Below, piece after piece: positions 4,813 through 21,967 of a stretch of 23,840 nucleotides of DNA. The translations under genes and the position numbers were made by a program. The DNA is from a virus. The notes beneath the pieces are model-generated. The model did not search any database, was not told the DNA's origin, and saw only the letters and a program-made list of their open reading frames with translations. Within the stretch, counting starts at the first letter, position 1. The number at the start of each line of letters is the position of its first letter. The stretch is from IMG/VR virus record IMGVR_UViG_3300048997_000278, positions 1 to 23,840 of that record. The stretch is one strand, 5' to 3'.

Positions 4813-5235
4813 CTAGCTCAGCGCGTCGGTCGTCGGCGCCGCGGCCGACACAAGCGTGCCCGTCGCCTTGACCGCGTCGTTCATGTCGAACGTCGTGTTG
4901 AGGTCGGTGCAGTACAGCGAGCCTAGGAACACGACCGTCGAGCCCTTCTTGATCTGGAAGTTCTTCGGCGTCGAGCTCGAGGCCAGCGCGAACGTCTCGA
5001 ACGCGGTGTAGCCAAGCGCGTCGGGAAGGTCCGGGATCAGCGCGAACGCGATCGACAGGGTGCGCAGGCCAGGCGCCTGCGTGCCGTAAGGCGCATTGTC
5101 CTTGGTCGACGTGTCGATCGTCGCGCCGTTGCGCGTGATCGAGAGGTTCTGCTGGCCCTTGATCTCGGTGAAGACCTCGGGGCCGGCGCCGTCGCCGATG
5201 AACAGGCGGTAGTCATTGCCGAGCTTCTTGGCCAC
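4813..5235 (-). CDS. Major tail tube protein
   Basis: The protein has 140 residues (MAKKLGNDYRLFIGDGAG...). The opening 'KLGNDYRLFIGDG...FTEIKGQQNLSITRNGATIDTSTKDN' and the following beta-rich segments are characteristic of TP901-1/GTA gp9-type major tail proteins, which polymerise into the tail tube. The start is GTG at 5235, chosen over an out-of-frame ATG at 5240 because the GTG frame is the long one and a GGAG site sits 7 bases upstream. Upstream lies a hairpin/T-run and a 24-base block shared with the major capsid gene leader. It is followed after 4 bases by a small tail gene. As in other siphophages it should be one of the most abundant virion proteins. Confidence 0.9.
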   Translation of the reverse strand: MAKKLGNDYRLFIGDGAGPEVFTEIKGQQNLSITRNGATIDTSTKDNAPYGTQAPGLRTLSIAFALIPDLPDALGYTAFETFALASSSTPKNFQIKKGSTVVFLGSLYCTDLNTTFDMNDAVKATGTLVSAAAPTTDALS

Positions 5236-5240
5236 GACAT

Positions 5241-5264
5241 TTCTCCAAAGAAAAAGCCCGCCGG
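5241..5264. repeat. 24-base leader element, copy 1 (before major tail gene)
   Basis: Identical over all 24 bases to 12755-12778. On the minus strand it contains the second arm of a GC hairpin, a five-T run and the GGAG ribosome binding site for the gene that follows. The two copies precede the two main virion structural genes, major tail (here) and major capsid. Confidence 0.85.
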
Positions 5265-5274
5265 TGGCGGGCTT
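5251..5274 (-). terminator. Intrinsic-terminator-like hairpin before the major tail gene
   Basis: On the minus strand the stem AAGCCCGCC/GGCGGGCTT (5254-5262 with 5266-5274, 9 bp, 3-base loop) is followed by TTTTT-type sequence (5251-5255). Structurally this is a Rho-independent terminator. It ends only about 15 bases before the GTG of the major tail gene, leaving no room for a promoter in between. A weaker second hairpin, CCCCG/CGGGG (5298-5302 with 5308-5312), lies further upstream in the same 99-base gap. Confidence 0.7.
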
Positions 5275-5334
5275 GGTTGAGGTAGGTGGCTTGCCTCCCC
5301 CGATGGCCGGGGTTTGCCGTGTGGCGGATCTTAA

Positions 5335-5742
5335 TCAGGCGGGCTGGACGAACATCTCGAACAGCAGCTTGTCGAAGTAGGTTTCGCCGTCTTCCATCAG
5401 CTCGGGGTCGGCCGACAGGAACACGGGTCTTCCGAGCTCCGCGCCGGTCGCGGTGATGACCTGTCCCTCGAGCGCGGTGCGGACCGCGCTGTTGAGCGCG
5501 TAGAGCTCGGTCGCATCGGGCCTGCGCACGTAGGTGAACACCGGGACCGTCGCCTTTTCGAAGCCGCCGTCCTTGGCCTCGGGGGCGATGAGCGCGACCA
5601 GGCCGATGATGACCAGCCCTTTCGCCACCAGATCGGCGTCCTCGGGCGCATTCTGCCACACGTCGCCGAGCGAAGTGACGCCGCTGCTGCCCTCGAGGGC
5701 CGTGAACACGGCCTCCTGGACGGCGGTCTGGAGGTCAATCAT
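5335..5742 (-). CDS. DUF3168 tail completion/terminator protein (GTA gp8-like)
   Basis: The protein has 135 residues (MIDLQTAVQEAVFTALEG...). The order 'L..AV..AL......V...VWQNAPEDAD...VIIG', 'Y.RRPDATELYALNSAVRTAL', then a beta/alpha end with 'F.MFVQPA', fits the DUF3168 family, whose GTA and SPP1-like members cap the tail tube and join it to the head. It starts ATG at 5742, 23 bases after the gp10-like stop, without a clear ribosome binding site. It is the last gene before the hairpin gap leading to the major tail gene. Confidence 0.8.
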   Translation of the reverse strand: MIDLQTAVQEAVFTALEGSSGVTSLGDVWQNAPEDADLVAKGLVIIGLVALIAPEAKDGGFEKATVPVFTYVRRPDATELYALNSAVRTALEGQVITATGAELGRPVFLSADPELMEDGETYFDKLLFEMFVQPA

Positions 5743-5765
5743 CGCGCGGCGATCGGCTCGAACCG

Positions 5766-6290
5766 TCAGTCATCGGAAGCTCCCGCCACGGCGCGCTGCA
5801 GCGCTCGGCCCCAGATCTTGCGGAAGGGGCCATAAATCTCCTCGCGGCTCACCGTGTAGAGGAACGGGTGCGGGGGGACGCCGTTGAGCCGGACGTCGCG
5901 CCGGCGGCGCGCTCTGAGCAGCCGCCCGCGAATCCCCGTTGCGGTAATCTTTTCCTGCTTCTCGAGCGTGTTGCCCCGGAAGCCGATCCGGTGGCCGTGC
6001 TCGACCAGGTAGCCGTAGAACAGCTTCTTGTTGACCGCCTTGCCGACCAGCCCGACCTTGAGGCTCAGCCGCTTGGGCGGCACCCGGTACGACAGCCCCG
6101 ATTTCAGCGCGCCTGGCGGCAAACCCTTGCGCTTCTTGCCCGAATAGACCGGGACCTTCGACTGCGCCCTTGCGAGCAGCATCTTCCCCGTCGCGTTCAT
6201 CTGCTTGCGGATCTCGTCGGCGACGTCATCCGGCAGCTGCTTGATGATCCTGGCGAATGAGCGCTCGCCGCGAATCCGTCTCCCGGGCAT
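5766..6290 (-). CDS. HK97 gp10-like tail/head-tail joining protein
   Basis: The protein has 174 residues, starting MPGRRIRGERSFARIIKQLP at ATG 6290 in a TGATG overlap with the previous stop; earlier in-frame starts would overlap that gene. 'RIIKQLPDDVADEIRKQMNATGKMLLARAQSKVPVYSG' followed by 'GALKSGLSYRV', 'YGYLVEHGHRIG' and 'PHPFLYTVSRE' is the HK97 gp10 layout: an N-terminal helix, the P...G.LK(R)S core, the VE.G motif and 'PHPFL'. Members sit at the head-tail interface or tail completion step. The basic insert 'RGRLLRARRRRDVRLNG' (about 132-148) is unusually arginine-rich. Confidence 0.85.
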   Translation of the reverse strand: MPGRRIRGERSFARIIKQLPDDVADEIRKQMNATGKMLLARAQSKVPVYSGKKRKGLPPGALKSGLSYRVPPKRLSLKVGLVGKAVNKKLFYGYLVEHGHRIGFRGNTLEKQEKITATGIRGRLLRARRRRDVRLNGVPPHPFLYTVSREEIYGPFRKIWGRALQRAVAGASDD

Positions 6291-6634
6291 CAGCTCGCCG
6301 AGCCCTGCGGCGCCAGCGTGCTCGCCTGGATCATTGTCCACTGGCGCGTGCCCAGCTTGTCCTCGGCCACGTGGATGTTGAGCTCGCGTGCGTCCCACAC
6401 GATCTGGTCTGCCGGCTTCAGGTCATCGCGGAAGCGGATCCGGATCTCGAATGTCGAGATGCCCTGGAGCACGTGGCCAATGACGGCCTCGCGGCCGTTG
6501 AGGCTGACCACCTCGGCCGAGAGATTGGCGGCGACGGTCGTCCAGCTTCGGTCCTGCCCGCCGCGGGCATTTTTGACGTTGACCTGGCGCCGGATCGTGA
6601 TCCGCTCGCGCAACCTGCCGGCGTCGAAATTCAT
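6290..6634 (-). CDS. Head closure protein (SPP1 gp16/Phage_H_T_join-like)
   Basis: The protein has 114 residues: 'AGRLRERITIRRQVNVKNARGGQDRSWTTVAANLSAEVVSLNGREAV' then 'ISTFEIRIRFRDDLKPADQIVWDARELNIH'. This is the typical head-tail adaptor pattern of G.LR.RI.I.R....N..GG....W, A.V..L.GRE, and I.YR..I...D.I.W..R..NI. Members close the capsid after packaging. ATGA overlap with the preceding connector gene and TGATG overlap with the following one make a three-gene coupled connector set, as in GTA and HK97-type operons. Confidence 0.88.
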   Translation of the reverse strand: MNFDAGRLRERITIRRQVNVKNARGGQDRSWTTVAANLSAEVVSLNGREAVIGHVLQGISTFEIRIRFRDDLKPADQIVWDARELNIHVAEDKLGTRQWTMIQASTLAPQGSAS

Positions 6635-7431
6635 CGCCGGAAGTTCGCGAGCAGTGCCGTCACCGCATGCGGCAGTTCGGTCGGGATGCCGCGCACGTCG
6701 ACCGCGACCGGCGACCGGTTGTCATACCAGAGGTGGATGAGCAGCAGCATCGCCCGGATCACCGGCCGCGGCACCGCGGTGTAGCCGACGACCGCGTTGA
6801 CCCGCACCGCGTCCTCGCACGCGCGGACCGCCGGGAAGGTCTTGTTGAAGCCGAGGCGGATCCGCGGCCGAAGCACGTCGGAGTCGACCGCGACCATCTC
6901 GTAGACCGCCGGATCGAGCAGCTGCTCGGCGCCGGCCGAGTCCAGGTAGCGGACGTCGACGATCGACTGCACCGGCGCCTGGGTCAGCCGCTCGAGCGCG
7001 GCGCAGCTTGGAAAAGTCATCCGCACCGCCGCCGGCGCAACGCGGATCCCGCAATAGGCTTCGACATGCTCGCGCGCCGACTGGATCAGCTCGAGCAGAT
7101 AATCGTCGTCGGCCGTTGTCCCTTCGGCCCGGACCTGGCGCTTGGCCATGTCGAGGCTGACGGGCTCCTCGCCGATCGGGAGGATCGCCGTCTCGGCATA
7201 GGTGCGGTTGAGGCTGGTGGTAATGGAGCAGGTGACGATGCCTGGCGCGCCCAGCGTCCCGCCGGCTAGCCAGGCGAGTATCTTCTCGCCGGCGATCGCA
7301 TCGCTGTTCCTGGTGACTCCGGTCGCGGTGACCGTTCTGGTGGAGATCGTCTCTCCGGCCTCGAGCACGGCCGAGAAGTCGAATTCAAAGTCCTCGACCT
7401 CGCCGGGCGCCTTGGGCGGCCAATAGATCAT
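6631..7431 (-). CDS. Fused adaptor-domain plus gp6-like head-tail connector
   Basis: The protein has 266 residues, about twice the usual size for a gp6-like connector. Residues about 1-87 form a beta-rich domain ('PGEVEDFEFDFS..L..GETIS', 'GVT..SD', 'WLAGGTLG...IVTCSITTS'), resembling the small fibre-tail adaptor-type proteins usually encoded as a separate gene. Residues about 88-266 open with 'EPVSLDMAKRQVRAEGTTADDDYLLELIQSAREHVEAYCGI' split as family motifs and are a clear HK97 gp6/Phage_connect-type connector that binds below the portal. ATG 7431 overlaps the previous stop as ATGA with a GGAGGG site, so the fusion is one reading frame with a sound start. The connector call is strong; the N-domain identity is moderate. 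Confidence 0.85.
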   Translation of the reverse strand: MIYWPPKAPGEVEDFEFDFSAVLEAGETISTRTVTATGVTRNSDAIAGEKILAWLAGGTLGAPGIVTCSITTSLNRTYAETAILPIGEEPVSLDMAKRQVRAEGTTADDDYLLELIQSAREHVEAYCGIRVAPAAVRMTFPSCAALERLTQAPVQSIVDVRYLDSAGAEQLLDPAVYEMVAVDSDVLRPRIRLGFNKTFPAVRACEDAVRVNAVVGYTAVPRPVIRAMLLLIHLWYDNRSPVAVDVRGIPTELPHAVTALLANFRR

Positions 7432-9269
7432 GCCACCCTCCTGCCTCGCGACACTGCTGCACTCCGGCCGTTGCGCGAGCTCGCGCCCGTCCGTTGCGGC
7501 GCGGCAAGTATTGCAACCCGTCCCGCCGGCCTGCTCGGCGGAAAGGCCGGCGCGACCCTGCCCTCGGCATTGGCCGCGCCGATCGCCGCGGCGGCCCCGA
7601 CCGCTTGCGCGATTGATTGGCCCATGCCGACGGCGACGCCGAAGCCGGCCGAGAGGCCGACGCCTGTGAAATAGGCGCGTCCCTGCCCGGCCGCGGTCGA
7701 CGTTGCAGCCGCATTTCCGGTAGCCGCGGCCAGGCTCGATCCTGTTGCCGCGACCGTCGAACTCGCGCCGGCGGAACCGGAACCGGTCGCCAGCGGGGAG
7801 CCGGTGCCGCCGGCCGTCGAGACGCCGGACGCGGAGCCCACCGACGGCGATCCCGCCGTCGAACTGATGCCGCTTGCCGATCCTAGACCAGCTGCCGAAC
7901 CGGTCCCTTTTGCCAATGCCGCGCCGGTCGCCGAGGCTGCGCCGACGCCGGCGGAAGAACCGCCGGCTTGAGCCGTCGACCTTCCGGTGCCGGCAGCGGT
8001 CGACGTTCCTGCTGCGGAGCCAGGCGAAACAGCTTGCGACTGCCCAACGCCTGAAGCCGCTCCGCTTCCAGCTGACGTTCCGGGCGAGAGTGCTGACGAA
8101 GCGCCAACGCCGCTTGCTACGCCACCGCCCGATGCACTGCCGTTAACAATCGGAACTGCGGAAGACGAGCCGCTGCCACTTGCCAAACCTGTAGCGAGCG
8201 CGAGGCTGGATCCGATGCCGGAACCAGTACCTGCACCGCTTGCCGATCCCGGCGAAACGGCGGTCGATTGCCCGGCACCCGACGCGCTTCCTGTACCAGC
8301 GGCTGAACCCGGCGAACTCGCCGTCGCGAGCCCGACTCCGGATGCGCTTCCGCTACCGGAAGCCGACCCGATGCCCATGGCGACCGCGTTGGCCGCCGAG
8401 GTGCCCGCTGCCGATCCGGACACGATTGGGACAGCAGCTGCGGTGCTCGTGCCAGTAGCGGCGCCGGTGCTGGCGTCGGTCGTCGCGGTATTGAAGCCGT
8501 CCAGAAAGGCAGCACCGGGACTTGCATCTGCGCTGAATAGCGCCGCGCCGATCGCAATCTTGCCACTCTTAACGGAAAGCGACCCGCTGAAGGTTTCCGA
8601 AGCCCGATCCGTCCAATCGCCTGGCGCTGGAGGATCGGAAGCCGAGCTCGGCGCCGTTTCGAAGTGAATGCTGTTGTCGGATGACTGATGCCTGATCCTG
8701 AACCAGGCGTGCGTGGTCGCATTGTAGGCAATGTTGAGGAGATCGGTGTTGACCCCAGCAACGCGTCTGCGAGCAATGATAACCCCGCCCGCCCCAAGGC
8801 TGCTCGCGCCGACCAGCCAGGTATAGTAATTATTGTCGTTGGGCCCATGCGACAGATAGGCGATCTCGTCGGCACTGAACGCGGCGACATTCGACACTCG
8901 AACATAGATGGCGCCGTCGGTGAGGTCGTAAACGCTCGTCGAAACATAGCCGGTCGCGCGGACGGCGCTCGCGGTCGGGGTTGCTTCCAGCCGCTGGTTC
9001 GTCTCGCTTGCGGTCCCGCCGGTTGTCGCCCCTTCGTAGAACCCGGCCGAGTTCCACTTGGTTGCGTCGAGGCTGTTGTCGTCGAAATTGTCGGTGAGCG
9101 CTGACGCGACGGGCGCTGGCGCGGCGCGTTGAGGCCCGGAAGGGCTTGCTGACTGCGGCGATGGGTCGAACGAAGCGCCGCCGTCAATCAGGATGGTCTG
9201 GACGAGAAGAAAGTTACCTTGAAGCCCTGCCGATCCCGGGATTGCCAGAATGATCGGGCCGCTCGGCAT
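7428..9269 (-). CDS. Lectin-like domain protein with about 15 Gly/Ala/Ser 20-residue repeats (candidate head fibre)
   Basis: The protein has 613 residues. After a short hydrophobic start (MPSGPIILAIPGSAGLQ) and a Pro/Ser linker, residues about 58-262 read as a concanavalin A-like lectin/glucanase fold: 'DNFDDNSLDATKWN' opening, alternating strands, 'YLSHGPNDNNYYTWLV', 'AWFRIRHQSSDNSIHFET', 'KIAIGAALFSAD'. Residues about 285-570 are roughly fifteen 20-residue repeats on a GSAxGxGxAxGxG theme. The C-terminus is basic and Arg-rich. The gene lies among the head genes, between a small structural protein and the connectors, so a capsid-attached fibre or decoration that binds sugars is my inference; a tail fibre is the alternative. 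It couples to the next gene by ATGA. The function is not proven by the sequence. Confidence 0.75.
   Translation of the reverse strand: MPSGPIILAIPGSAGLQGNFLLVQTILIDGGASFDPSPQSASPSGPQRAAPAPVASALTDNFDDNSLDATKWNSAGFYEGATTGGTASETNQRLEATPTASAVRATGYVSTSVYDLTDGAIYVRVSNVAAFSADEIAYLSHGPNDNNYYTWLVGASSLGAGGVIIARRRVAGVNTDLLNIAYNATTHAWFRIRHQSSDNSIHFETAPSSASDPPAPGDWTDRASETFSGSLSVKSGKIAIGAALFSADASPGAAFLDGFNTATTDASTGAATGTSTAAAVPIVSGSAAGTSAANAVAMGIGSASGSGSASGVGLATASSPGSAAGTGSASGAGQSTAVSPGSASGAGTGSGIGSSLALATGLASGSGSSSAVPIVNGSASGGGVASGVGASSALSPGTSAGSGAASGVGQSQAVSPGSAAGTSTAAGTGRSTAQAGGSSAGVGAASATGAALAKGTGSAAGLGSASGISSTAGSPSVGSASGVSTAGGTGSPLATGSGSAGASSTVAATGSSLAAATGNAAATSTAAGQGRAYFTGVGLSAGFGVAVGMGQSIAQAVGAAAAIGAANAEGRVAPAFPPSRPAGRVAILAAPQRTGASSRNGRSAAVSRGRRVA
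7560..8417 (-). repeat. 60-bp coding repeats (20-residue Gly/Ala/Ser units)
   Basis: Within the 613-residue protein, repeat units start near residues 285, 301, 321, 341, 361, 377, 397, 417, 437, 457, 478, 498, 518, 538 and 558, nearly all 20 apart (one 16, one 21). The consensus is about G-S-A-A-G-T-G-S-A-S-G-V-G-Q-S-T-A-V-S-P. Odd positions are almost always Gly, Ala or Ser while even positions vary. The DNA copies are diverged, so they are not a fresh tandem array. Confidence 0.85.
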
Positions 9270-9271
9270 GA

Positions 9272-9730
9272 CTATTCATCCCAGACGAACGAAGCGCCCA
9301 ATGTCCCCAGGGTCGCGCCCGCGGCCGACACCTGGTTCACCATCAACCCGCCCGAGGCCGCGATCACGAGCGGGCGGTTAGTGAAGTCCCAAATCCAGCC
9401 GGAACCGATGCTCGCCGCCAACTGGCAGCGGCGCAAGCCGAGAGGAGTGCCGAGGCGCGTCGGGCGTAACGTGGCCCAGGCGGTTTCCAGCACGGCGGCG
9501 CCGGCACTGTCGCCTGGGTCCGCGGCGGCGGCGGCGGTCGAGGTGATCGTGCCGGTGCCGACCGCATTCATTCGCTCGAGCTGAAGCGTCAACGGGGTCG
9601 TCGACGCGACTTCGACCCAAACTGCAATCTCGATCAGACGAATGCGGTTCGCCGCCGCCGCCTTCAAATTGGCGAGGATCGTGTTCGCGGTGTTGACGCC
9701 CGCGACCGAGATTGTTGCTTGCTGGATCAT
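9272..9730 (-). CDS. Hypothetical beta-rich structural protein
   Basis: The protein has 152 residues (MIQQATISVAGVNTANTIL...). It is predicted beta-rich, with 'RIRLIEIAVWVEVASTTPLTLQLERMNAVGTGT' and an ending 'RPLVIAASGGLMVNQVSAAGATLGTLGASFVWDE' that looks like the strands of a small beta-sandwich. Such proteins are common next to fibre or decoration genes of siphophages; I do not recognise the family. It begins in an ATGA overlap with the preceding 48-residue ORF and ends 3 bases before the lectin/repeat protein, so the three are probably one functional set. Confidence 0.7.
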   Translation of the reverse strand: MIQQATISVAGVNTANTILANLKAAAANRIRLIEIAVWVEVASTTPLTLQLERMNAVGTGTITSTAAAAADPGDSAGAAVLETAWATLRPTRLGTPLGLRRCQLAASIGSGWIWDFTNRPLVIAASGGLMVNQVSAAGATLGTLGASFVWDE

Positions 9731-9873
9731 GGGGCGCGCCCCTCACTGGCTAGAGGAATCAGGTGTGGCGGACGGGGCAGCGTCACGTCGGGCGTGTCGC
9801 CGCTAAGCACGCTGCGTGAGGCGACGAACGCGCCGTCCACCGTCCCGGTGGCGCTGATCTTGGTGTCGGCCAC
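9727..9873 (-). CDS. Small (48 aa) phage protein, 'ADTKIS' type
   Basis: A GTG-started ORF (VADTKISATGTVDGAFVASR...) fills the gap between two larger genes exactly: it begins 3 bases after one stop and its TGA overlaps the next ATG as ATGA. A GGGAG site lies upstream of the GTG. 'ADTKIS' openings are frequent on phage fibre-like structural proteins that begin 'MADTKISALT'; here only a short Pro-rich segment follows (LPRPPHLIPLASEGRAP). It may be a shortened version of such a protein or a small linker. Support is from spacing, coupling and the N-terminal motif; function unknown. Confidence 0.6.
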   Translation of the reverse strand: MADTKISATGTVDGAFVASRSVLSGDTPDVTLPRPPHLIPLASEGRAP

Positions 9874-9876
9874 GTC

Positions 9877-10329
9877 CTATCTCCCGAACAAGGAGCGCAT
9901 CGTCTTTTCGCGGGCTGCCATCATTCTCGGGCGGACGATCAGCGGGTCGGTGTCGCCGTTGGCGTAGCAATCGGCGACGACGTCCTCCATCGCCTTCCGG
10001 ACCTCGATCATCGCCGGCTTCATGACCGGGTTGCGGCAGTTGACGCTGATCCCGACGCCCTCGACGACCCGCGAATAGACGCGTTCGGCCGAAGGCTTCA
10101 GCCGATCGGGCAGGGCGGAAGGCAGGTCGCGCTCGGTCAGCCAGCGATGCGACCAGGCGCGCGCCTTGAAGCTCACCGTCTCCGCCTGCGTCCGCGCGTG
10201 GTGCATCACCGTTTCCGCCTGCTCGGCGGTCTTCGGCTGCGGCAGGTGCGGGAACCAGGCCGACCACATGCGCCGCAGCAGGCGCACGTCGCCGGCCTCG
10301 AGCGCCGCTCGGAAGTCCTCGTGCCGCAC
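9877..10329 (-). CDS. Hypothetical helical phage head-region protein
   Basis: The protein has 150 residues (MRHEDFRAALEAGDVRLLRR...), with GTG start at 10329, 4 bases after the preceding stop. The sequence is helical and basic: 'WSAWFPHLPQPKTAEQAETVMHHARTQAETVSFKARAWSHRWL', then 'VVEGVGISVNCRNPVMKPAMIEVRKAMEDVVADCYANGDTDP', and 'MRSLFGR' at the end. It has two Cys and no signal or membrane segment. It lies downstream of the capsid gene cluster. I do not recognise it; scaffold, accessory head protein or fold-helper are all open. Confidence 0.7.
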   Translation of the reverse strand: MRHEDFRAALEAGDVRLLRRMWSAWFPHLPQPKTAEQAETVMHHARTQAETVSFKARAWSHRWLTERDLPSALPDRLKPSAERVYSRVVEGVGISVNCRNPVMKPAMIEVRKAMEDVVADCYANGDTDPLIVRPRMMAAREKTMRSLFGR

Positions 10330-10333
10330 GAAA

Positions 10334-10699
10334 CTAGTCCGCCTTGCGATAGACGGTGCCGTTTTGCTCGAACACGCCGTTGCCGAGGTCGACCGGTTCG
10401 TCCTTGGGCACGTCGGCGAAGCTCACTTCGACCTTGCCGGGCCCGAAAGGCCCGTCGACGCGGCCGAGGCAGACTTCGTGCTCGGGATCGCCGCCGTAGA
10501 AAGCGACGTGCGCGATCGCCGACTTCGCCGTGAACTCGGCCACCCCGTCGGCGAGCTCGTCCTCGACGACCGGATTGTGCACCTCGTGCGTCACATTGAC
10601 CTTTTGGATGGCGACAGAGCCGTCGCCCTGCTCGACCGGGATTTCTCGGCGGCTGAGCGCATTGGCGGCGGCGTAGGCGCGGAAGCGTTCTGGATTCAT
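10334..10699 (-). CDS. Hypothetical head-region protein
   Basis: The protein has 121 residues (MNPERFRAYAAANALSRREI...), with ATG at 10699 and a strong AAGGAG site. The first 20 residues are helical, followed by beta-rich sequence ('SIAHVAFYGGDPEHEVCLGRVDGPFGPGKVEVSFADVPKDEP' type, with many Gly/Pro/Asp). It ends 4 bases before the next gene. It lies between the gp80-like protein and another unknown in the head region. No family recognised; a small virion or assembly protein is likely only from context. Confidence 0.7.
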   Translation of the reverse strand: MNPERFRAYAAANALSRREIPVEQGDGSVAIQKVNVTHEVHNPVVEDELADGVAEFTAKSAIAHVAFYGGDPEHEVCLGRVDGPFGPGKVEVSFADVPKDEPVDLGNGVFEQNGTVYRKAD

Positions 10700-10753
10700 G
10701 GGATGCTCCTTGAGGCTGGCGAGAGGGTTGGCGTGCGGCCGAGGTCAGCCAAC

Positions 10754-11191
10754 TCAATCCAACGTCATGGTGGTGGAGGTCGACAGCTGCGGCGTGACGC
10801 CGTTGCCGGTCACGATGTTCGGCGTGACCGTGCCGCTGAACAGGATCGCGGTGGCGCCGCCGCCGGTCTTGCCGGTCGCGAAGTTGGTCACCGTGCCGGA
10901 TCCGCCAGTGCCCGCGGGGAATGCGATCGTCGCGACCGGAGCGACCTGCGTTGGCGCGGTGCCGCTGACCGTCCAGCCGCCGGTCGTCCGCGCCACGTTG
11001 ACGCGGGCATAGCTGGTATAGGTCGCCTCCGACGTCGACATCGTGCCGGCGTCGCCGGGATCGGCGGTGGACAGCGCGACATGAATGTTGGTCTGCGGCG
11101 TCGTCGCGGCGTTGTCGGCATAATTGCCCCACGCCGTCGCGCAGAAGATCAGCGCGAGAAGCGCGTTTTCGGTGGTGTCTGAGATCGACAT
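10754..11191 (-). CDS. Gp80-type phage fibre/decoration-like protein
   Basis: The protein has 145 residues: 'MSISDTTENALLALIFCATAWGN', then 'NIHVALSTADPGDAGTMSTSEATYTSYARVNVART..GW.VSG', 'IAFPAGTGGSGTVTNFATG' and 'ILFSGTVTPNIVTGNGVTPQLS'. This layout (helical S.SD..EN.LL..IF, then V.L.TADPG, YARV.V, A.I.FP, G.VT.F and GDG-like end) matches a widespread siphophage family named after mycobacteriophage gp80 and often annotated 'tail fibre'. Next to capsid genes it may instead be a head decoration. It follows the 64-residue DUF7302-like gene by 4 bases. An imperfect GTTGGC/GCCAAC inverted repeat (10727-10753) lies just after its stop. Confidence 0.8.
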   Translation of the reverse strand: MSISDTTENALLALIFCATAWGNYADNAATTPQTNIHVALSTADPGDAGTMSTSEATYTSYARVNVARTTGGWTVSGTAPTQVAPVATIAFPAGTGGSGTVTNFATGKTGGGATAILFSGTVTPNIVTGNGVTPQLSTSTTMTLD

Positions 11192-11195
11192 TTGG

Positions 11196-11390
11196 TCAGC
11201 CCTCGCTCTTGTTTGCGCGCTGCTCGGGCGCTTGGGACTTGGTCGCCTTTTCGGCCGCCTTGGCGGCGACAGGCACGGCGAAGCCGGCTTCGATTAGCCG
11301 GATGGCCTCGGCCTGCTCGTATTCGTGCTCCTCGCCGGCGTGACGAGCCTCGTCCGGGTTGGCGAGGCTGGTGGTTAGTTTGACGCGCAT
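11196..11390 (-). CDS. DUF7302-like small head-region protein
   Basis: The protein has 64 residues: 'MRVKLTTSLANPDEARHAGEEHEYEQAEAIRLIEAGFAVPVA' then an Ala/Lys-rich end with 'ANKSEG'. The opening (M.VKLTTS.A.....PG...E....EA.RLI.AGFA.PV) is the pattern of a small phage family often found near the capsid gene. It is preceded by two hairpins that separate it from the major capsid gene, with GGAGACAGCG before ATG. A role in head assembly or completion is inferred from location only. Confidence 0.75.
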   Translation of the reverse strand: MRVKLTTSLANPDEARHAGEEHEYEQAEAIRLIEAGFAVPVAAKAAEKATKSQAPEQRANKSEG

Positions 11391-11406
11391 CGCTGTCTCC
11401 TCTTCG

Positions 11407-11426
11407 GAGCGCCGCTCACGGCGCTC
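11407..11426. other. Perfect hairpin in the leader of the 64-aa gene
   Basis: GAGCGCCG-CTCA-CGGCGCTC, 8-bp perfect stem with a 4-base loop. On the minus strand it lies just upstream of the GGAGACAGCG ribosome binding region of the gene ending at 11390's start and just downstream of the terminator after the capsid gene. It could be an mRNA processing or stability element; no T-run follows. Confidence 0.6.
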
Positions 11427-11434
11427 GGAAGAAG

Positions 11435-11460
11435 AGAGGGCGGGCTGAAGCCCGCCCTCT
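11435..11460 (-). terminator. Terminator-like hairpin after the major capsid gene
   Basis: On the minus strand an 11-bp perfect stem (AGAGGGCGGGC with GCCCGCCCTCT, 11435-11445 and 11450-11460) and a 4-base loop lie 12 bases after the capsid stop, followed by the pyrimidine-rich TCTTCTTCC. The T-run is weak, so it may be partial, letting some transcription continue to the downstream head genes. Confidence 0.7.
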
Positions 11461-11472
11461 GCCAGTTGGTGG

Positions 11473-12750
11473 TTACGCGAGCTTGAGGTGCTTGATCGCC
11501 GCGGCGTCCATCAGGTTGCCGTCGAAGCGGATCCACCCGGCGATGCCGAAGCCCGGCCAGAAGTCCTTGTCCTGCAGTGCGCCGACAAGCGGGGCACCGA
11601 CCTTGCGGACGAAGTACTTGCTGAAGTCGCCGAACAGGATGAGCTTCTGGCCAGTGGTGAAGGCCTGGCTCATCGCCTGGTTGACCTCATAGCGGCGGCC
11701 GTTGAGCGAGCCGGGGACGCCCTGCTGCACGTTTCCGTGCTGCCACAGGTAATTGCCCTGGCCGTCCTTGAGCTTGCGCAGCGCCTGGAGGACCGGGTCG
11801 CTGAACATGTACATGGCCGAGGGCGAGGCCCGGTAGGCGGGGTCGACGCTATGCTCGAGGTCGATGACCTCGTCATAGACGATCGCCGTCGCCGAAGCGG
11901 CGGTCTTGCCGGTTGCCGACGCGACGACGATGCCGTTCGGCGCGGTCGTGCCGACGCCGACGGTCAGCTGGCTGTTGGCCAGCCGGCCGAGGCGCTCGCC
12001 AAGCAGCGAGCCGAGCAACGCTTCCATCGCGAACAGCGAATCGTCAGCGAGCTCCTTCGACACGCGCAGCCACGGCGTCGCGAAGCTGAACGCGCCGAGA
12101 GACTTCTGGGCGAACACGACGTCGCCCGAGCCGTCGTCGGTCAGCGTCACGCCCTGCGTGGTCGCGGCGCCCGTATTGGCGGTGTCGTCGACCGTCGGGA
12201 ACGGCAGCGAATAGCCGCCGCTGGTGACGATCTCGCGCGTCACGCCCGGATCGTACATCGGGCCGAAGAGCTTCATCGTCCGGATGATCTCGGCCTGAAG
12301 CTCGACCGGGACGGTGTAGCCGCCGGCGGCGTTCGTGGTCGTTTGGGCGCGCTGCTCGACCGTCTGGTAGCCGCGCTGCAGGACTGCACGCTCCTCGGGG
12401 CTGAGCAAGGCGACCTGGCCCTCCGCTCGGAGATAGGCGTGGAAGGCAGCGCGATACGCAACCTCGTTGGGAGCGTCAGCGGCGGATGCGCCGGTGACGG
12501 GCTCGATCGGGCGCCTGTCGCGCACCTCTCGCTCGCGGCGCTCGGCAAGTGACCGTTCGGCGGCGGCGACACGCTCTTCGCGCGCAATCTGCGCATCGAG
12601 CGTATCAAGCGCGGTCATGGCCGCGTCGTGCTGCGTTTCGAGCTCGGCAGCGCGGCTCTCGTCGGTGTTGGTATTGATCTGGTCGAGGCGCTCGCGCGCG
12701 GCGGCGACCAGGGTTTCGCGCTGCTCCTGCAGCTCACGAAGAGTGGGCAT
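11473..12750 (-). CDS. Major capsid protein, HK97 family
   Basis: The protein has 425 residues. Residues about 1-80 are a charged coiled-coil delta/scaffold domain (MPTLRELQEQRETLVAAARE..., ending in Arg-rich 'RREREVRDRRPIEP') that the prohead protease would remove. The mature fold follows, with 'AGGYTVPVELQAEIIRTMKLFGPM', 'LPFPTVDDTANTGA', 'VSKELADDS', 'ALRKLKDGQGNYLWQ', and 'ILFGDFSKYFVRKVGAPLVGALQDKDFWPGFGIAGWIRFDGNLMDAAAIKHLKLA' split across the end, all HK97-type. ATG 12750 is preceded by GGAG at 6 bases; an in-frame TTG at 12762 is less likely. It is flanked by a terminator-like hairpin on each side. Cut site not identifiable by eye. Confidence 0.95.
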   Translation of the reverse strand: MPTLRELQEQRETLVAAARERLDQINTNTDESRAAELETQHDAAMTALDTLDAQIAREERVAAAERSLAERREREVRDRRPIEPVTGASAADAPNEVAYRAAFHAYLRAEGQVALLSPEERAVLQRGYQTVEQRAQTTTNAAGGYTVPVELQAEIIRTMKLFGPMYDPGVTREIVTSGGYSLPFPTVDDTANTGAATTQGVTLTDDGSGDVVFAQKSLGAFSFATPWLRVSKELADDSLFAMEALLGSLLGERLGRLANSQLTVGVGTTAPNGIVVASATGKTAASATAIVYDEVIDLEHSVDPAYRASPSAMYMFSDPVLQALRKLKDGQGNYLWQHGNVQQGVPGSLNGRRYEVNQAMSQAFTTGQKLILFGDFSKYFVRKVGAPLVGALQDKDFWPGFGIAGWIRFDGNLMDAAAIKHLKLA

Positions 12751-12754
12751 TGCA

Positions 12755-12778
12755 TTCTCCAAAGAAAAAGCCCGCCGG
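12755..12778. repeat. 24-base leader element, copy 2 (before major capsid gene)
   Basis: Identical over all 24 bases to 5241-5264 in the leader of the major tail gene. On the minus strand it contains the end of a GC stem, a five-T run, and the GGAG ribosome binding site 6 bases before the capsid ATG. The similarity stops sharply on both sides. Confidence 0.85.
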
Positions 12779-12785
12779 AGCGGGC
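12765..12785 (-). terminator. Intrinsic-terminator-like hairpin before the major capsid gene
   Basis: On the minus strand GCCCGC-TCCG-GCGGGC (12770-12775 with 12780-12785) is followed by TTTTT (12765-12769). It lies 29 bases past the protease stop and 15 bases before the capsid ATG, so no promoter fits between the hairpin and the start codon. Confidence 0.7.
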
Positions 12786-12813: not shown

Positions 12814-13407
12814 CTAGGCTTTACTCGCCAGCCTGCGGGCTCGCAGGTCGACGGTCATCTTCCTCGCCACGCGCTTCGCGGCGGCGTTGAAATTCTTGGC
12901 TTTTCGGGCGCTGCGAGCTTCCTCGAGCGAGCGCATGCCGATCTCGGTGTCTTCGTAGGCAGGATCGGCGGTGATCGTGACCTCATAGAGGTCCACGGCC
13001 TTGATCGTGCGCGTCGGCGGCGTGACGGTCTCGTCCCATTCCTGCTTTGTGACGCAAAAGCCGAACGACATGCCCTTGAGATCGCCGCGCTGAACCAGCA
13101 CGCCGACGTCGCGGCCGTCGCTGGTGTCGGGGAGGTCGATCTCGACCGCCAGGCCTTTGTCGTCCTCGCTCAGCCGGAGTGTGCCCGCGCTCTCGCGGCC
13201 GAGCAGGCGCTCGAGCTCGTGGCTGTACAGGGCCAGGACGTCGCGCCCGCTGCTCAGGGTCTCCGTGAAGGCGCCGGCTTCGACCACCTCGGTCCACAGG
13301 CCGCAAATATCGGTCGGGCTGTTGAACACGGCCGCGTAGCCGGCGATGGTCTTGCCGTCGCTCTGGCTCTGGACCGGCTGTGCGCTAGCCCTGATTTCCT
13401 TCGGCAT
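12814..13407 (-). CDS. HK97-family prohead protease
   Basis: The protein has 197 residues. 'GKTIAGYAAVFNSPTDICGLWTEVVEAGAFTETL' opens the fold; 'VLALYSHELERLLGR' supplies His63; 'GDLKGMSFGF' supplies Ser114; 'VDLYEVTITADPAYEDTE' carries a likely acidic Glu142 and the usual 'EVS.V..PAY..T' block. This is the standard HK97 gp4-type serine protease pattern for cutting the capsid delta domain. It begins inside the end of the portal gene (23-base overlap) and precedes the capsid gene. The basic C-terminus (AKRVARKMTVDLRARRLASKA) may be trimmed during maturation. Confidence 0.93.
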   Translation of the reverse strand: MPKEIRASAQPVQSQSDGKTIAGYAAVFNSPTDICGLWTEVVEAGAFTETLSSGRDVLALYSHELERLLGRESAGTLRLSEDDKGLAVEIDLPDTSDGRDVGVLVQRGDLKGMSFGFCVTKQEWDETVTPPTRTIKAVDLYEVTITADPAYEDTEIGMRSLEEARSARKAKNFNAAAKRVARKMTVDLRARRLASKA

Positions 13408-20870: not shown

Positions 20871-21208
20871 GTCCCGATTTCCCCTGGCTTGACATTGACA
20901 CTCACCACGACGCCGGCGCCGTGCTCGCCAGGGTGTATCGCGAAAATGATCGCTTCGCAGCACTGGCCCTCGTCATGGATCGCGGTGCGAAGCCAACTAT
21001 CGCGGGCAACATAGCCGAGCGTCGCCCCGCCCGCGGTTTTTGCGACGAGTGCCTGGTCGTCGTAGGGATTGCCGATGTCGTGAAGCACCTCGACGCGGTC
21101 ACCCGGCCTCGCGTCGAGAATCGCACGCTGGTAATTGAGCTCGCCCACGAGGCCGACGGGGTAGCTGCCCGGCGGCCAGTCTTCGTCGTCCACGCCGTAG
21201 TCGCTCAT
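20852..21208 (-). CDS. HIRAN-domain protein
   Basis: The protein has 118 residues, essentially one HIRAN domain: 'YPVGLVGELNYQ' (18-27), 'ARPGDRVEVLHDIGNPYDDQALVAKTAGGATLGYVARDSWL' with the typical NPYD (47-50) and 'GYVAR' (65-69) features. HIRAN domains bind 3' DNA ends or small DNA substrates in Rad5/HLTF-type proteins and also occur alone or in mobile elements. The ATG overlaps the CI stop as ATGA with AGGAGG in CI's last codons. It is probably lysogen-expressed with CI. A DNA-end sensing or defence role is plausible but not shown. Confidence 0.8.
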   Translation of the reverse strand: MSDYGVDDEDWPPGSYPVGLVGELNYQRAILDARPGDRVEVLHDIGNPYDDQALVAKTAGGATLGYVARDSWLRTAIHDEGQCCEAIIFAIHPGEHGAGVVVSVNVKPGEIGTCAFSR

Positions 21209-21867
21209 ATCCTCCTCACCACGCCGACCACGCGCCCGATGACCTGCGCCTCACCTTCATAGGCGATGATCGGCGAGACCGCCGCATTGTCGCTGTTGAT
21301 CTGCAAACTGCCGTCGGGCAGCGACCGCAGTCGCTTGATCATTCCCCACCCGCCATAGCTCAGCGCCCAGATCCGATCCTGCTGCTTCGGCGTGTTCTGC
21401 GCCCGGTCGATGATCACCAGGTCCTGGTCGAGGATCGTCGGCATCATCGAATCGCCGTCGCCGCGCGCGACCATCAATTGGTCGGCCGAGCTCGTGGTGA
21501 GGCCGCGCAGCCATGACCGGCTGAATGGCACCATCTGCACCACTGGCCAATCCTCGAGCACCGATCCGCCGCCCATGCTGAGGCCGACCTGCACCTCCGG
21601 GATCAGCACCGCGTCGAGCTGCTCGGCGATGTCCTGGGCTTTCGGCGCCGGCAGCGCGCCTTCGGTCGCGTCGTCGGTCTCGCCGGTCAGGTACGCTGGC
21701 GTCGTGCCGAGCTCGCGCGCAATGAGGTGGAGGTGTTTCGAACCGTACGACTCGCCCGTCGCTAGCTTGCCGATGGCCTGCTGGCTGATGCCTACGCGCC
21801 GAGCCAGTTCAGCCTGGCTTAGGCCGACGACCGCAAGTCGCTGACGGAACCGGGCAGCATCAAACAT
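21205..21867 (-). CDS. CI-like phage repressor (HTH plus S24 peptidase)
   Basis: The protein has 220 residues from ATG 21867, chosen because it is next to the divergent operator; upstream in-frame codons cross that region. Residues about 1-60 form an XRE helix-turn-helix ('LSQAELARRVGISQQAIGKLATGES'). Residues about 95-220 are an S24 peptidase/dimerisation domain, with Ser140 in 'GDGDSMMPTI' and Lys178 in 'WGMIKRL' forming the catalytic dyad. Where LexA/CI have Ala-Gly there is 'LSMGGG', so self-cleavage at that site cannot be assumed. It keeps the prophage silent and transcribes left with HIRAN and lipoprotein genes. Confidence 0.93.
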   Translation of the reverse strand: MFDAARFRQRLAVVGLSQAELARRVGISQQAIGKLATGESYGSKHLHLIARELGTTPAYLTGETDDATEGALPAPKAQDIAEQLDAVLIPEVQVGLSMGGGSVLEDWPVVQMVPFSRSWLRGLTTSSADQLMVARGDGDSMMPTILDQDLVIIDRAQNTPKQQDRIWALSYGGWGMIKRLRSLPDGSLQINSDNAAVSPIIAYEGEAQVIGRVVGVVRRI

Positions 21868-21967
21868 ACAACCATGCCTATCACCATAGTTGTTGGCGAC
21901 AGCGACAAGGTTTGTTGTTGACAGCATCTCAACCGGAGTTGTAGCTGTTCGACTCGTGGACCAGGCG
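21868..21967. promoter_or_regulatory. Divergent CI/Cro operator-promoter region
   Basis: The 100 bases between the CI ATG and the Cro-like ATG hold one ACAAC (21868-21872) and three GTTGT half-sites (21889-21893, 21914-21918, 21938-21942). ACAACCAT and ATAGTTGT (21868-21875 with 21886-21893) form an imperfect inverted repeat, and CAAC-CGGA-GTTG (21930-21941) is a second inverted pair. This is what a CI/Cro operator set looks like; which copies bind which protein is inference. Confidence 0.7.
21918..21945 (+). promoter_or_regulatory. Candidate rightward early promoter (PR)
   Basis: A consensus -35 TTGACA (21918-21923) is followed 16 bases later by TGTAGC (21940-21945), a weak -10. The -35 overlaps a GTTGT site and the -10 a second one, so repressor binding would block it. 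It points to the Cro-like gene, ATG 21968. Confidence 0.5.

Follow-up and report, generated by a model that had tools for sequence, protein, structure and literature searches.

Hundreds of copies of the capsid and tail-tube proteins are made from one long late transcript, and this is usually ascribed to Shine-Dalgarno (SD) strength alone. The leader of T7 gene 10, which encodes the major capsid protein, contains a hairpin, a U-rich stretch and a strong SD, and makes use of its own promoter and of RNase III processing. Cluster K mycobacteriophages carry 11–19 copies of the SAS, a fixed 13-bp sequence (GGGATAGGAGCCC) placed before start codons, and the inverted repeats of the Extended SAS (ESAS), found upstream of about half of these, are said not to support hairpins (PMC3203893). 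Ratios can be set by partial terminators lying between genes, and in E. coli translation ceases to suppress termination once the distance from stop codon to hairpin exceeds ~27 nt (PMC4824070). Strong terminators can also raise the mRNA level upstream (PMC11696848). Terminators upstream of capsid genes are not described as an arrangement in the open-access literature searched.

We analysed a 23,840-nt virus contig (the window, by which we mean this whole stretch of DNA) in which the minus-strand 24-nt sequence CCGGCGGGCTTTTTCTTTGGAGAA occurs identically at 5264-5241 and 12778-12755, both copies lying on the coding strand of the late genes. A first-pass annotation had reported this perfect match, had called the genes behind it major tail and major capsid, and had placed within each copy the U-run of a GC hairpin and the SD of the gene that follows. 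We confirmed all of this, the tail gene matching PHROG 1407 and PF06199 and the capsid gene PF05065. The features are as follows.

4813..5235, minus strand: major tail (tail tube) protein, MTP, 140 aa, GTG start; PHROG 1407, PF06199
5241..5264, minus strand: repeat copy 1, CCGGCGGGCTTTTTCTTTGGAGAA, with loop end, 3' arm, U-run and SD, before the major tail gene
5243..5246, minus strand: Shine-Dalgarno GGAG of the MTP gene, 7 nt before GTG 5235
5247..5255, minus strand: MTP-leader U-run, TTTTTCTTT
5256..5272, minus strand: MTP-leader hairpin, 5' arm GCCCGCC (5272-5266), loop ACC, 3' arm GGCGGGC (5262-5256)
5335..5742, minus strand: tail-completion (gp17-like) protein, upstream of MTP; Pfam match slightly under the curated cut-off
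11473..12750, minus strand: major capsid protein, MCP, 425 aa, HK97 family, ATG start; PF05065
12755..12778, minus strand: repeat copy 2, CCGGCGGGCTTTTTCTTTGGAGAA, before the major capsid gene
12757..12760, minus strand: Shine-Dalgarno GGAG of the MCP gene, 6 nt before ATG 12750
12761..12769, minus strand: MCP-leader U-run, TTTTTCTTT
12770..12785, minus strand: MCP-leader hairpin, 5' arm GCCCGC (12785-12780), loop TCCG, 3' arm GCGGGC (12775-12770)
12814..13407, minus strand: prohead protease, upstream of MCP, its stop 28 nt before the MCP hairpin

In both hairpins the U-run (8 T in 9 nt) begins at the 3' base of a GC-rich stem (7-bp and 6-bp GC), which is the shape of an intrinsic terminator, and the two leaders are the best two terminator-like sites of the window coding strand. 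Flanking A-T pairs lengthen the MTP-leader hairpin to 5274-5254. The folded leaders have modest z-scores (-1.4 to -1.8), and on rough gene calls the start region behind the MCP leader is the most accessible, tied with one doubtful call, with that of MTP among the top few. MTP homologues begin ATGGCNAAG at the codon equivalent to the window GTG at 5235. The stop of the gp17-like gene lies 62 nt from the MTP hairpin; for MCP, the script used to measure such distances overlooks some stops and returned 69, where direct reading gives 28. The scanned regions of the window contain no sigma-70-like promoter, from which host promoters may differ, and since the SD starts within 10 nt of the 3' arm there is no space for a promoter between hairpin and gene. 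There were no Rfam matches at gathering score in the window and six related loci. A CI-like repressor (21205-21927) and a Mu Gam-like protein suggest that the phage is temperate. In the window 7.5 kb separates the MCP start from that of MTP, as compared with about 3-6.6 kb in relatives, and the extra DNA (within 5236-11472) includes a 613-aa ORF (7428-9269) with a weak PHROG match only and a Gp80-like protein (10754-11191).

The exact two-copy match was expected zero times in 100 dinucleotide shuffles of the genome, and the window holds no third copy with three or fewer mismatches. A shuffled genome as the only null is, however, the wrong null, and we replaced it by matching modules against one another. 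The pattern GCCCGC-N2-8-GCGGGCTTTTT-N0-8-GGAG has at least 120 matches in IMG/VR, and an ORF begins 4-10 nt after the GGAG at 111/120 unique module sites among the matches listed; hairpin-T5-SD modules are common in phages. Among the listed matches, 1.15% of 6341 pairs of hairpin-T5-GGAG modules, taken from different IMG/VR contigs and unrelated genes, agree over at least 24 nt through the T-run, so that the identity seen in the window is about a 1-in-100 event given the architecture. The exact 21-mer GGCGGGCTTTTTCTTTGGAGA itself recurs ahead of different genes in some five unrelated contexts, with its own 5' arm in each. Nor does the similarity end sharply at the borders of the block, as had been claimed: the 5' arms are also alike (GCCCGCCAccgg and GCCCGC-Tccgg) and the 3' side resumes past a 1-nt indel (GGAGAAATG and GGAGAA-TG), making a similar stretch of ~35 columns with two indels and one mismatch. 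The same annotation was right that this is not leftover gene duplication.

Relatives allow the block to be divided into its components. In the MTP leader of L286 the window flank is kept through CCTCAA and continues directly into TCTTTGGAGA, and in the MCP leader of L082 the segments GTAAAGCCTA...CGGCCCAAT are common with the window and are followed by CTCTTTGGAG; the hairpin is absent from both, and in both the lineage SD context TCTTTGGAG survives. Six further leaders (L051, L077, L083, L103, L105 and L022) carry different hairpins at the same point, between conserved flanks. On this basis, the 24-nt block consists of a common terminator arm, T5 and the lineage SD context at both genes and, as DNA sequence, is nothing special. 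General homogenisation of modules within a genome was considered and rejected, the linkers being different in most multi-module contigs.

To follow the leaders across phages, sets of MTP and MCP homologues were picked by protein similarity and not by leader, with ORF starts chosen by script. Of 38 MTP leaders (that of the window plus those of 37 IMG/VR homologues), 30 have a hairpin and T-run adjoining the SD; dinucleotide shuffles have them in 1.05% of cases, and other SD-bearing ORF starts on the same contigs in 6/237, three of these six being MCP genes. Five of the eight MTP leaders outside the 30 keep a hairpin without the T-run (judged by eye), and the hairpin thus outlasts the terminator property. 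The combination is found in 19/87 MCP leaders against 2/306 other ORF starts, namely the MTP gene of L038 and a tape-measure gene; most MCP homologues, some close ones included, are without a hairpin of this terminator type (T-type). The corresponding Fisher p-values (7e-27 for MTP and 1e-11 for MCP) ignore relatedness and are optimistic, because homologues are not independent. In 29/30 MTP leaders the hairpin ends 20-22 nt ahead of the start codon, and among the matches listed from an independent IMG/VR sample this spacing has its peak at 20-24 nt. Stem letters vary with pairing kept (GCCCCGC/GCGGGGC, GCCGCGC/GCGCGGC, CCCGCC/GGCGGG); a MAFFT alignment of the MTP leaders for pair counting misplaced the 5' arms and was dropped. 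We conclude that the shape and position of the hairpin are under selection and that its letters are not.

In the window, L018 and L038 a hairpin and U-run lead MCP and MTP alike, as they also do, on direct reading of the leaders, in L284, L303 and L280, a Sphingobium prophage. Within L018, L038 and L280 the MCP and MTP copies are unlike each other. The first-pass annotation had proposed a shared RNA leader, possibly served by a common regulator. Its first part survives in altered form, since this type of leader recurs at MCP and MTP in relatives, and a leader type common to capsid and tail genes is supported, but a common sequence is not kept. Indeed, the exact block is absent from close relatives, an outcome which that annotation had itself listed as counting against its proposal. 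A common regulator that reads the shared sequence finds no support, given that the copies differ within those three phages, that the 21-mer also stands before other genes, that the hairpin is kept as its letters turn over, and that sister phages use a different RNA. Named phages also carry the module, at the tail-tube gene (8028) of Rhizobium phage 16-3 and the major tail gene of Labrenzia phage vB_LagS-V1. Phage 16-3 also has, right after the capsid gene, a strong hairpin without a U-run, GGCGGGGC-ATTTA-GCCCCGCC (L267:5364-5422), directly before the SD of p007. The reverse strand of L280, a Sphingobium wenxiniae prophage, carries three hairpin and T-run leaders, all different in stem or linker, which precede MCP, a tail-tube-like gene (MTVRTSAG) and another ORF.

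Many MCP relatives without the T-type hairpin carry instead a leader that we call R1, made of two short hairpins and lacking a U-run. The first, P1, has a 4-bp stem with a bulged C and UU-GGGC-AA, and is followed by a spacer ending in GAA; the second, P2, is CGYN-GTGA-NRCG, followed by TCC..TCCCTTAGAWGGAGSCC and the start codon. The loops UUGGGCAA and GTGA (GNRA-like) are conserved, as is the sequence up to the SD. In 18 MCP and MTP copies 98% of cells pair and 29 cells have changes in both pairing partners, compared with a mean of 11 after shuffling and 0-3 for slid structures; covariation stands at 0.44 vs 0.13. These statistics lean towards structure because the seed copies were partly picked by pairing. 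The R1 pattern, in a scan that detects exact matches only, has at least 120 matches in IMG/VR. Among those listed, 83/84 unique sites have an ORF behind them, P1 beginning 59-68 nt upstream of its start codon, and the 76 downstream products scanned comprise 30 Phage_tail_2, 17 Phage_capsid and 10 Phage_tube_2 proteins, the remainder being mainly TTP_11/12 tail-tube and GP7 and P22 coat capsid families. The genes behind these sites nearly all encode major capsid or tail-tube proteins, drawn from unrelated families. A covariance model of R1 gave 62 matches in the MCP-relative loci and none in the window up to E=1. R1 also precedes the annotated major tail protein of cyanophages Pan4 and Mae-JY02; it has no relevant match in Rfam 15, and none was found in 190 alphaproteobacterial genomes. 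R1 may merit a study of its own more than the original repeat does. Its sites are:

L036, L039, L043, L048, L049, L053, L060, L061, L063, L067, L068, L069, L070, L071, L084: R1 before both MCP and MTP (15 sister contigs)
L319-L434; L435/L436:6001-6069: further R1 sites

Scored by leader type as MCP/MTP (R, R1; T, terminator-type), the combinations are R/R 15, R/none 4, R/T 1, none/R 3, T/T 3, T/none 7, none/T 1 and none/none 17, with Fisher p=3e-6 for R1 and p=0.046 for the T-type, relatedness being ignored in both.

Among relatives of the window capsid and tail genes the T-type module occurs chiefly at MCP and MTP. Its range over all phages is wider and takes in tape measure, tail fibre, J and endolysin genes, besides MCP and tail tube; in named phages it precedes an amidase gene, an endolysin gene and genes of the tail. 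In 99 Sphingomonadaceae genomes a hairpin with T5 occurs 43 times, six of these being copies of one dispersed repeat; 6 of the other 37 sites have a GGAG, each with a prophage-type gene behind it (MCP twice, MTP twice, holin-like twice). The strict pattern has only three matches in 190 Alphaproteobacteria, and a looser one picked up some host genes too in 396 Sphingomonadales genomes. The view of the module as an ordinary bacterial terminator feature was rejected, the strict pattern being rare in bacteria and found at prophage-type genes. The dispersed repeat (L232, L236-L240) belongs to one Sphingomonadaceae genome, where its six copies carry CCCGCTCTGCGGGCTTTTTTGCGGTGGAG with no ORF behind and are possibly a mobile element end. 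Six Sphingomonadales prophages (L230, L231, L254, L259, L262, L263) have 64-aa holin-like genes directly after the module, two of these leaders carrying the exact TTTTTCTTTGGAGAA. In L250 and L257, also from Sphingomonadales genomes, genes of predicted 3'-5' exonuclease type (PF10108 in L250), which may be host genes, follow a hairpin, U-run and SD. In many Pseudomonas and other phages (L111-L227) the linker from T-run to SD is often CATGCCYGGAG-like or TTCGCCTGGAG, and its GCCYG could pair with the hairpin 3' arm to give a putative alternative hairpin beside the SD; as a switch for the window this was discarded, the linker being absent there.

The reading of the hairpin leader that we favour, at a probability of about 0.5, is that it serves the two most abundant virion proteins at the level of RNA. 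Each copy would be the leader module of one late gene, composed of GC hairpin, U-run and SD. Ending ~20 nt before the start codon, which would coincide with the upstream edge of the 30S ribosome footprint, the hairpin may shield the ribosome-entry site from GC-rich mRNA upstream and mark or stabilise an mRNA end, while the U-run and SD would present an open, strong site for ribosome entry. Its terminator shape indicates that the hairpin probably also pauses or partly terminates polymerase. The anatomy, conserved position, sequence turnover and concentration at MCP and MTP come from computation, and we infer every functional step. An RNA-level role is favoured because R1, which for want of a U-run cannot be an intrinsic terminator, occupies the same two slots, and because some MTP leaders retain the hairpin without its U-run. 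Termination may nonetheless well be the selected function, as most leaders with the hairpin also retain the U-run, and the modules are not reserved for the most abundant proteins, as similar ones stand elsewhere before lysis, tape-measure and fibre genes.

Guard terminators are the nearest competitor, in our estimation less likely than not but close behind. Here the hairpins would be true intrinsic terminators within the late operon, halting stray host transcription in the lysogen ahead of the most strongly translated or harmful genes, and would be read through late via antitermination or a high transcription-translation flux. The canonical shape of both window hairpins and U-runs, the apparently temperate lifestyle (CI-like repressor), the module before holin-like genes of Sphingomonadales prophages and lysins of named phages, and stop-to-hairpin distances of 28 and 62 nt, beyond the E. 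coli suppression range of ~27 nt (PMC4824070), are all consistent with this. Yet without antitermination, for which no antiterminator was identified, a succession of two efficient terminators would leave the tail genes short of transcript, and neither R1 nor the five MTP leaders with a lost U-run fits a guarding role. We consider it unlikely that the hairpins are partial intra-operon terminators, which would set expression ratios or supply a stable 3' end to the upstream transcript and be gated by ribosomes finishing the upstream gene. The usual distances from upstream stop to hairpin (median 19 nt among the matches listed from the IMG/VR sample, 24 nt in the MTP family) do lie within the ribosome-repressible range of E. 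coli (PMC4824070), but they come from the script that misses some stops, the window spacers are too long for such gating, and partial termination would lower the downstream gene, the one most needed.

The remaining alternatives address the identity of the two copies. Recent copying or gene conversion between leader sites, or a linker for recombination where two genes meet, would make the identity functionless; paired modules in L117 and L194 have a common loop and arm beyond need, and the hairpin behaves as a presence/absence cassette, but the 5' arms in the window differ by an indel and a substitution, the downstream SD context exists independently at both sites in relatives, and a 24-nt match is a ~1% event even between unrelated modules, so that this explanation appears improbable. 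Least credible, and already largely refuted, is recognition of the 24-nt sequence at both genes by some factor of phage or host: the exact match between two distant genes speaks for it, but relatives do not keep the sequence, capsid and tail copies diverge within L018, L038 and L280, the same 21-mer precedes other genes of unrelated phages, and TCTTTGGAG is retained without the hairpin.

Returning to RNA-level control, a wider proposal, to which we give slightly less than even odds, is that tailed phages commonly place one RNA leader type at exactly MCP and MTP and control both at the RNA level. The T-type hairpin and R1 would be alternative occupants of these slots, and R1 a new cis-acting RNA family across unrelated capsid and tail-tube families, to which a common factor probably binds. 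If this is true, the leader slot, mainly confined to MCP and MTP and filled by different RNA structures according to lineage, would form a layer of control that is general and can be tested, and the loops and compensatory changes of R1 across unrelated MCP/MTP families would make its RNA reader directly approachable. If the T-type hairpins are instead working terminators, antitermination is predicted in many prophages in which none is known.

Compared with described systems, the window leaders most resemble intrinsic (Rho-independent) terminators, including the partial intergenic ones (PMC4824070), with which they share a GC hairpin, an immediate U-run and a location between genes of the same operon; in the window, however, the U-run runs straight into the SD of the next gene, and termination is predicted from shape. 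The T7 gene 10 leader likewise has a hairpin, a U-rich stretch and a strong SD ahead of a major capsid gene, but no homology to it is known, and the window U-run belongs to a terminator-like hairpin. SAS and ESAS are likewise short repeated elements just before start codons within one phage genome, whereas the window leader has another sequence and two copies only, and it is structure rather than sequence that is kept, mainly at MCP and MTP. R1 is like the window leader in occupying the same MCP and MTP slots, in placing hairpins before an SD and in serving both genes with one leader type, and unlike it in having two hairpins, conserved loops and sequence up to the SD, and no U-run.
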